From contig JAAFIC010000005.1 of the NCBI GenBank assembly GCA_013298565.1, positions 20,494-84,493 of the forward strand: DNA of 64,000 nucleotides. Reading direction: 5' to 3'. Below, one piece after another: positions 23,599 through 38,281 of the stretch. Positions within the stretch are counted from its first letter, which is position 1. The number at the start of each line of letters is the position of its first letter. This stretch comes from Alphaproteobacteria bacterium. GTDB lineage: Bacteria; Pseudomonadota; Alphaproteobacteria; Elsterales; Elsteraceae. Both the position numbers and the translations under genes were made by a program. Below the pieces are notes generated by a model. The model saw only the letters and a list, made by a program, of their open reading frames with translations, was not told where the DNA came from and ran no database searches.

Positions 23599-23735
23599 TA
23601 GAGCTGCGTGCGTTAAGTCGGACGCAGCTCTAGAGGCCGCCATTGCGGCGGCGGCCAAGGGCGCGGATGCGCCCGCCCGGCGAGGGCTAAAAAATAACCT
23701 ATAACGTCGTGCGTCTAATTTAACGCACGACGCTA
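23599..23735. repeat. Modular hairpin element, copy A (composite)
   Basis: TAGAGCTGCGT-12nt-ACGCAGCTCTA, then a GC-rich core with 44 bp (23647-23690) identical to 37998-38041, then CGTCGTGCGT-8nt-ACGCACGACG. Confidence 0.9.
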
Positions 23736-31352: not shown

Positions 31353-31877
31353 ATGAGCGACCTAACCTCACAGACTCTGGCGTCCGAGCTTGCAGAGCTT
31401 CGTGAACAACTGGCCTTGATCCAGTCCGAAGTTGCCGCGATCCGTCATCCGCGCTCGACGGAAGATCGAATCTCGACAGCCGTAGCGGAATTGCGCGCCA
31501 TTGTGTACGCTACCGAGACTGCAACCAATGGCATTCTGGCCGTCGCCGAAGCGATTGACTCGGCGGCAGAATCAATCCCGCGTGCGGCGTCCGAAGGCAG
31601 TGTCGATATGGCGGTGGAGCAGATTCACTCGCTGGTCGCCAGCCTGTTCACCGAATGCGCTTTCCAAGATATTACCGGCCAGCGCGTGTCTCGAGTGGTC
31701 ACAACGCTGGAGTTCGTCGAGCAGCGCATCGGCATAATTATCCAAGCGCTGGGCGATAGCTTCGACGATATGATCCCACCGAACCAAGGCCCGGTAGGCG
31801 GCACCGACGGGCTGCTGAACGGCCCGTCGCGCAGCGGCGGCGTTAGCCAGGCCGATATTGATAGTTTGTTTGGCTAG
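31353..31877 (+). CDS. CheZ-like protein phosphatase family protein
   Basis: ECAFQDITGQRVSRVVTTLEFVEQRI plus C-terminal SQADIDSLFG tail. Confidence 0.7.
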   Translation: MSDLTSQTLASELAELREQLALIQSEVAAIRHPRSTEDRISTAVAELRAIVYATETATNGILAVAEAIDSAAESIPRAASEGSVDMAVEQIHSLVASLFTECAFQDITGQRVSRVVTTLEFVEQRIGIIIQALGDSFDDMIPPNQGPVGGTDGLLNGPSRSGGVSQADIDSLFG

Positions 31878-31912
31878 AGCATCGTGCGTCATAGTTGACG
31901 CACGATGCTCTA
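31875..31912. repeat. Solo 3' module of the modular hairpin element
   Basis: TAGAGCATCGTGCGTCA-TAGT-TGACGCACGATGCTCTA perfect 17-bp stem; inner 36 nt identical to the reverse complement of 38087-38122. Confidence 0.9.
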
Positions 31913-37395: not shown

Positions 37396-37644
37396 ATGAC
37401 CACGCAAACACTGACCGTCAGCATTGATAGCGACACCGCCGCCAAACTTCAGGCGTCGGTGGAGGCTGGCAGCTATGCCACTGTTACCGCAGCGGCCCAA
37501 GCGGCTTTGGCGACGTGGTACGATCCCATCCAAGCCAAAGAAGAACTGCGCCGCCTGTGGCGCGACGGGCTAGCGAGTGGTCCGGGGCGTCCTGGGGAAG
37601 ATGTTTTCCGGGACTTAATGGCCCGCTATAACGATAGCCCGTGA
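37396..37644 (+). CDS. ParD/CopG-like antitoxin
   Basis: MTTQTLTVSIDSDTAAKLQASVEAGSYATVTAAAQAAL; overlaps the downstream toxin. Confidence 0.8.
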   Translation: MTTQTLTVSIDSDTAAKLQASVEAGSYATVTAAAQAALATWYDPIQAKEELRRLWRDGLASGPGRPGEDVFRDLMARYNDSP

Positions 37645-37952
37645 TGCTTCCACTAATTATTCTCGATCTTGCCGAACGGGATTTATTGATCCTTCGGGAG
37701 TATTTGGAAGAGAATTACGGTGTTGTTACGGCGCGTACGGTGCTTCAGCGGCTTCTGTCAGTGTGCAGCCATCTCCAGAAATTACCGCAGCTTGGCCGGT
37801 CTCGTGACGATATCGAGGCGGGTTTACGCTTTTTTCTATGCGATCAAACCGTGCTTTTATATCGGATTGGGGCCGAGCGGTTCGAACTCGTGCGGGTTCT
37901 TGATGCTCGTCAAGATTGGCTTCGCCTGTTGACGACGCCCACCCCCCACTAG
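37641..37952 (+). CDS. ParE/RelE-type toxin
   Basis: LIILDLAERDLLILREYLEENYG...LGRSRDDIEAGLRFFLCDQTVLLYRI. Confidence 0.8.
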   Translation: MMLPLIILDLAERDLLILREYLEENYGVVTARTVLQRLLSVCSHLQKLPQLGRSRDDIEAGLRFFLCDQTVLLYRIGAERFELVRVLDARQDWLRLLTTPTPH

Positions 37953-38087
37953 AGCCGCGCGCCTTAACACTGGCGCGGCTCTATAAGCCGCCATTGAGGC
38001 GGCGGCCAAGGGCGCGGATGCGCCCGCCCGGCGAGGGCTAAGATAAAACTAGAGCGTCTTGCGTCAACCTTTACGCAAGACGCTCTA
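37950..38087. repeat. Modular hairpin element, copy B (composite, plus orientation)
   Basis: TAGAGCCGCGC-12nt-GCGCGGCTCTA; core 37984-38041; TAGAGCGTCTTGCGT-8nt-ACGCAAGACGCTCTA. Confidence 0.92.
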
Positions 38088-38281
38088 GAGCATCGTGCGT
38101 CAACTATGACGCACGATGCTCTCGCTTTCTTTTAGCCCTCGCCGCCAGGTGCGTTGACGCGCCAAGCGCTTGGCCGGGCGCGTCCGCGCCCTTGGCCGCC
38201 GCCTCACCCGACACGCTTGGCGTGTCAAACACGCCTGATGCGGCTTTTAGAGCCGTGCCAGAGTTAAGGCGCGCGGCTCTA
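38087..38281. repeat. Modular hairpin element, copy C (composite, inverted, expanded hairpin tips)
   Basis: AGAGCATCGTGCGTCA-ACTA-TGACGCACGATGCTCT; inverted TTAGCCCTCGCCG...CCGGGCGCGTCCGCGCCCTTGGCCGCCGCC; TAGAGCCGTGC-12nt-GCGCGGCTCTA. Confidence 0.88.

Follow-up and report, generated by a model that had tools for sequence, protein, structure and literature searches.

RUP, a repeat of Streptococcus pneumoniae, is a MITE of ~107 bp derived from IS630-Spn1 (PMC2229807, PMC3049150) and belongs to the repeats in which the 5' end pairs with the 3' end (PMC2229807). Compared by description, the element that we analysed at positions 37950-38281 of the window, a 64,000-nt stretch of alphaproteobacterial DNA, shares with RUP its non-coding nature, TA ends, terminal repeats like those of a resident IS630, intergenic placement and over-representation at convergent genes. 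One unit measures 138 bp, against ~107 bp for RUP, and whereas the RUP ends pair mutually, each end of the element forms a hairpin of its own, with a conserved three-hairpin core between the two. We regard the element as a MITE of the RUP kind whose conserved core is so far undescribed.

Two alphaproteobacterial repeats, CIR of Caulobacter and Brucella (Chen and Shapiro 2003, as described in PMC2229807) and Bru-RS (PMC2267715), are likewise intergenic, ~110 bp long and bounded by TA, with two palindromic arms and a linker; this arrangement of arms, linker and TA termini is also that of the element. According to that description, GANTC in the terminal loop defines CIR. Terminal-loop GANTC is absent from copies B and C of the element and occurs in 2 of 29 host copies, which sets the element apart from CIR as described there. 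GANTC is frequent in the copies of other lineages, but not in those of the host.

BOX of S. pneumoniae (PMC3049150) resembles the element in being composite, with modules at both ends and a middle one that can repeat in tandem; its hosts are unrelated, however, and the likeness is one of description, not of sequence. REP/BIME repeats with their RAYT enzymes (PMC2817692, PMC3733652) are also short intergenic palindromes, often paired, but the element has no Y1 transposase in its host genome, carries a TA duplication and forms a larger composite unit, and on these grounds the earlier judgement that it is not a simple REP holds. Searches for a described family gave none: no Rfam family scored above its gathering threshold (the best score was 43 bits, where gathering would require 268), and the core motif was not found in the papers searched, which is weak evidence since subscription journals lay outside the coverage.

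A tail-to-tail pair and its relatives in the host genome

Positions 37950-38281 hold two copies of one modular repeat, B and an inverted C, placed tail to tail as the preliminary description had proposed and sharing the TA at 38086-38087. Each unit reads, in order, L hairpin, H2, GGCCAA, H3, H4, an A-rich linker and R hairpin. Copy B (37950-38087) opens with the left TA of the insertion (37950-37951), one copy of the duplicated dinucleotide. Its L hairpin (37950-37983, forward strand) is assigned as a fold-back of an IS630-type terminal repeat from its fold, the likeness of the consensus arm to the Azospirillum IS630 left end (19/25) and the covariation of the stem. The conserved core follows at 37986-38039 (forward), recognised by a core-model match of 83.1 bits and by covariation, and comprises H2 (37987-38003), GGCCAA, H3 (38010-38025) and H4 (38026-38038). 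The A-rich linker TAAGATAAAAC (38039-38049, forward), evident from the sequence and from the alignment of copies, leads into the R hairpin (38050-38087, forward), a fold-back with an IS630-type right end, assigned by fold, IS630 likeness and covariation.

Copy C (38086-38281, reverse strand throughout) begins at the shared TA with its R hairpin (38086-38122), identified from sequence and fold. Its core (38135-38246, with a core-model match at 38159-38217) is followed by the L hairpin (38248-38281), which forms an inverted pair with the L hairpin of B, to which it is 93% complementary, and whose last two bases (38280-38281) are the right TA of the joint insertion. The inverted-repeat arms of B and C are 79-94% complementary. 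Both palindromic tip expansions reported earlier in C are real: one sits in H2 and the other separates H3 from H4, and they are GCTTGGCGYGTCAAACRC-type modules, homologous to each other in opposite orientation and present in other copies too. The predicted RNA fold of B consists of exactly the L hairpin, H2, H3, H4 and the R hairpin (-81.6 kcal/mol, z -7.2), and that of C reaches -121.7 kcal/mol (z -9.0); in neither case was any shuffle equally stable.

The hairpin cluster is no chance structure, because in the host genome (3.02 Mb in 126 contigs) blastn with the 140-nt unit gives 73 matches and the covariance model of the core gives 54, numbers that bear out the description of a modular, intergenic, multi-copy element. 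The suggested covariance-model search, carried out with a model of the core and run on the host and on related genomes, returned further copies in both. About 40 host copies are near full length, the top ones 94-99% identical, and the core lies nearly always between L and R. Variants include solo R hairpins, forms lacking H3-H4 or the whole core, and forms in which one tip expansion or both are present; full copies, core-deleted forms and solo R hairpins all occupy the same kind of site. Elsewhere in the window, a further composite copy, A, with an eroded R end lies at 23599-23734 (forward; core-model match), and a solo R-type hairpin sits between C-TA and TA-G at 31875-31912.

An R-hairpin sub-type with TATAGC...GCTATA ends and a AAAAATAACC linker occurs at 23706-23734 of the window and at two other loci (L037, L019), and mostly accompanies a second type of L hairpin. 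A second repeat family, the hairpin GAGCAAATCCCGAGCGGGTGGRNNCACCCGCGACGACGNATTTGCTC, is common near the elements, as in the flanks of four host copies (L006, L009, L024, L030), and is also present at ~25 places in one congener (G002).

IS630-type ends and TA target sites

The element ends in Y-TAGAGC...GCTCTA-R. Among the 35 copies whose two ends are clear, the left TA follows a C or T without exception (35/35), and the right TA precedes an A or G in 33. For 16 copies we fused the two flanks and looked for the corresponding unoccupied sites in two congeners. A single TA was found at the orthologous congener sites of four copies (L010, L012, L023 and L040); in two other comparisons gaps obscured the picture. 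These four unoccupied sites, with the Y-TA..TA-R flanks, agree with the TA target duplication of IS630 MITEs. The element is also like such MITEs in being short, non-coding, multi-copy and intergenic and in having IS630-like terminal repeats.

The duplicated TA also bears on the proposed RAYT link, in which a REP/BIME-type repeat would be moved by a Y1 HUH transposase. Hairpins, intergenic siting and tail-to-tail pairs would suit such a repeat, but REPs lack a target duplication. To our knowledge, TA duplication is not known from Y1 enzymes. A search for a Y1 transposase (Y1_Tnp) found none in the host genome, none in two congeners and none in two of the three Tistrella genomes rich in the core. 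We consider a RAYT mover extremely improbable; for the host genome it is refuted, unless the 3% that the assembly lacks includes a Y1 gene.

One IS630-family relic, with a truncated N-terminal side, is present in the host genome (NF033545, 109 bits; PF13358). At the right the relic ends in ..GCTCGATGCTCTA|G, much as the element's R hairpin ends in ..CACGATGCTCTA|G, the terminal string common to both being ..CTCGATGCTCTA|G. Complete Azospirillum IS630s have ends TAGAGCATCGCGCC.. and flanks Y-TA..TA-R. In ungapped comparisons, the consensus L arm of the host copies matches the Azospirillum left end at 19 of 25 bases, the arm of a Magnetospirillum moscoviense copy matches the IS630 left end at 21 of 25, and the R arm matches the Azospirillum right end at 19 of 27; shuffled arms set against the terminal repeat average 7.7-7.8 matches (p<1e-4 for 19/25 and 21/25). 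The IS630s of Azospirillum and Rhizobiaceae (NF033545) resemble the element in TAGAGC ends, in the Y-TA-R target and in 19-21 of 25 terminal-repeat bases. Unlike the element they encode a transposase, and neither the fold-back hairpins nor the core were seen in them. On sequence grounds, the L and R hairpins resemble terminal repeats of IS630 whose outer part has been copied as a fold-back.

Because of the IS630-like ends, the single-TA unoccupied sites, the Y-TA..TA-R flanks and the stop codon supplied by about half of the copies (below), we consider it very probable that each copy is a non-autonomous IS630-family MITE moved by an IS630-type transposase. Two terminal repeats, each enlarged to a fold-back hairpin (L and R), would enclose a non-coding three-hairpin core, and an IS630-type transposase would presumably act in trans, inserting the element at Y-TA-R and duplicating the TA. 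The B-C pair probably stems from two successive insertions, in which one copy went into the CTAG that closes the R side of the other. This reading names a likely mover for an abundant repeat family. Against it, the host assembly holds only the relic and no intact IS630 partner, and none was found in the two congeners; such a partner is usual for these MITEs, though it does not strictly define them, and it was possibly lost after the element spread, or possibly falls in an assembly gap. The ends also differ elsewhere, in Asticcacaulis and in many Magnetospirillum copies, and Tistrella cores mostly lack the R hairpin. Asticcacaulis ends have little in common with the IS630 repeat beyond TAGAGC (p 0.03-0.18).

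Stop codons at the insertion sites

Both ends of the element, read inward, start with TAG. The stop codon of an ORF of at least 80 codons lies at one end or more in 18 of 35 copies, compared with 61 of 314 YTAR sites in the window; for stop codons at both ends the figures are 5 of 35 and 3 of 314. At copy B, the left end provides the stop codon TAG (37950-37952) of a ParE-like gene at 37641-37952 (ParE_toxin PF05016, 1e-10), which would end in TAA without the insertion. On an Asticcacaulis plasmid, a serine hydrolase gene has a stop codon in which a copy starts.

If an IS630-type MITE entered a TAA or TAG stop codon at its TA, or two convergent genes at the TA of a YTAR overlap, the stop codon or codons would be recreated because both ends begin with TAG, and such insertions would therefore be tolerated and accumulate. 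Termini that restore stop codons on both sides would offer a simple reason for the siting of the element at gene ends. We infer that the excess of stop codons reflects the survival of harmless insertions, without special targeting. In the window, positions 37396-37952 hold an 82-aa ORF without a Pfam match, followed by the ParE-like toxin (PF05016).

The conserved core across Alphaproteobacteria

The core is more conserved than the element ends. A plain MITE leaves this unexplained, and it raises the question of why an internal core outlasts in conservation the ends that a transposase needs. The core is kept across four orders, in the probably Elstera-like host lineage and in the Magnetospirillum, Tistrella and Asticcacaulis lineages, whose flanking hairpins differ. 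In the stems of H2 and H3, 94.9% of cells are paired, against 37-55% with partners slid, and 46 two-sided changes were counted, against 12 in shuffles; the L and R stems show compensatory changes as well. The joints GGCCAAG and GCCCGGCGAGGG hardly vary, even across orders.

Conserved joints together with covarying stems usually indicate a functional fold. For the stems, a mutational by-product of quasi-palindrome template switching or gene conversion, rather than selection on structure, is a serious alternative that we rate somewhat below even, and it would be compatible with a MITE. It is suggested by one Tistrella locus at which the core has compensating changes and the 140 nt downstream are hardly altered, and by the palindromic nature of the tip expansions themselves; the conservation of loops and single-stranded joints across orders speaks against it. 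A regulatory RNA, in a 3' UTR or between cistrons and kept by selection for the transcript, would fit the stable folds of B and C, the covarying stems and the retention at orthologous Tistrella loci, but seems improbable to us: the element is absent from orthologous congener sites, its taxonomic spread is patchy (core in 6 of 386 sampled Alphaproteobacteria genomes), and its orientation relative to genes is unbiased, which argues against an orientation-specific RNA function. Paired changes keep the stems intact, but the selection on folded RNA or ssDNA proposed earlier is not established, because orientation is unbiased and template switching or gene conversion can keep palindromes perfect. 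In an IS630-type MITE, the core might be a structured cargo whose behaviour in transcripts makes the element less harmful at the 3' ends of genes, a guess that we hold only tentatively.

Congeners have 3-4 copies of the core, against ~54 in the host genome. An exact search of bacterial genomes with a 24-mer of the core gave at least 77 stretches, which with few exceptions come from Magnetospirillum, other Rhodospirillales-type MAGs and Tistrella; one of them (L115) looks like a coincidental match within coding sequence. Among plasmid records, Asticcacaulis and Niveispirillum also have the core. Of the sampled Magnetospirillaceae-type genomes, so called after named Magnetospirillum records, 33 of 39 contain the core, with at least 148 matches in one, and a phylum-wide sample (n=398) gave no genome with the core outside the class Alphaproteobacteria; in these large samples, the one of 386 genomes included, stricter filters applied, so that weak copies can be missed. 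A phage origin found no backing, since neither viral contigs nor phage records gave a match, and searches of plasmids and papers with the text of the solo hairpin or core gave no informative match.

Many Magnetospirillum copies start with ATACCGGC. Six of them (L063, L075, L080, L107, L113, L163) show a different terminal repeat, ATACCGGC...GCCGGTAT, often right after a stop codon, and these ends perhaps belong to another TA-duplicating transposase. In Tistrella, an assignment that agrees with named Tistrella mobilis records, the core is multi-copy without IS630 ends, is preceded by a hairpin of locus-specific sequence, and occurs in arrays of 2-4 cores. Across lineages, tandem core arrays have periods of 62-96 nt; examples are L055, L070, L124, L067, L170 and L173. 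Because some of these arrays reach contig ends, copy numbers from draft genomes are underestimates. As a possible peptide repeat, the core reads AAIEAAAKGADAPARRG in one frame, and the period is 63 nt in some arrays; periods of 62, 64 and 96 nt in others argue against a general coding role.

The core might also be a structured unit, as RNA or extruded ssDNA, with a mobility or function of its own; TA-duplicating MITEs would then have carried it, different ones in different lineages, and in Tistrella it would spread by itself. We think this possible but doubtful. Conservation across four lineages while the flanking hairpins change, the tandem arrays, the Tistrella copies without IS630 ends and the strong covariation of the H2 and H3 stems all favour such a unit. 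No enzyme was identified for it, however, the core is nearly always found between L and R in the host genome, and at orthologous Tistrella loci it is mostly kept vertically. Among those loci we found no clean core-only unoccupied site; where the full core is missing, the intergenic sequence is replaced or decayed. In similarly speculative terms, the ~54-nt core could be an undescribed structured module of at least four alphaproteobacterial orders, hitch-hiking in MITEs of different transposases and having a function or spread of its own. The core is mostly retained at the orthologous Tistrella loci, once with a compensatory change in H3. At the Tistrella loci L160-L180, AGACTC, which contains a GANTC site, follows the core in many cases.
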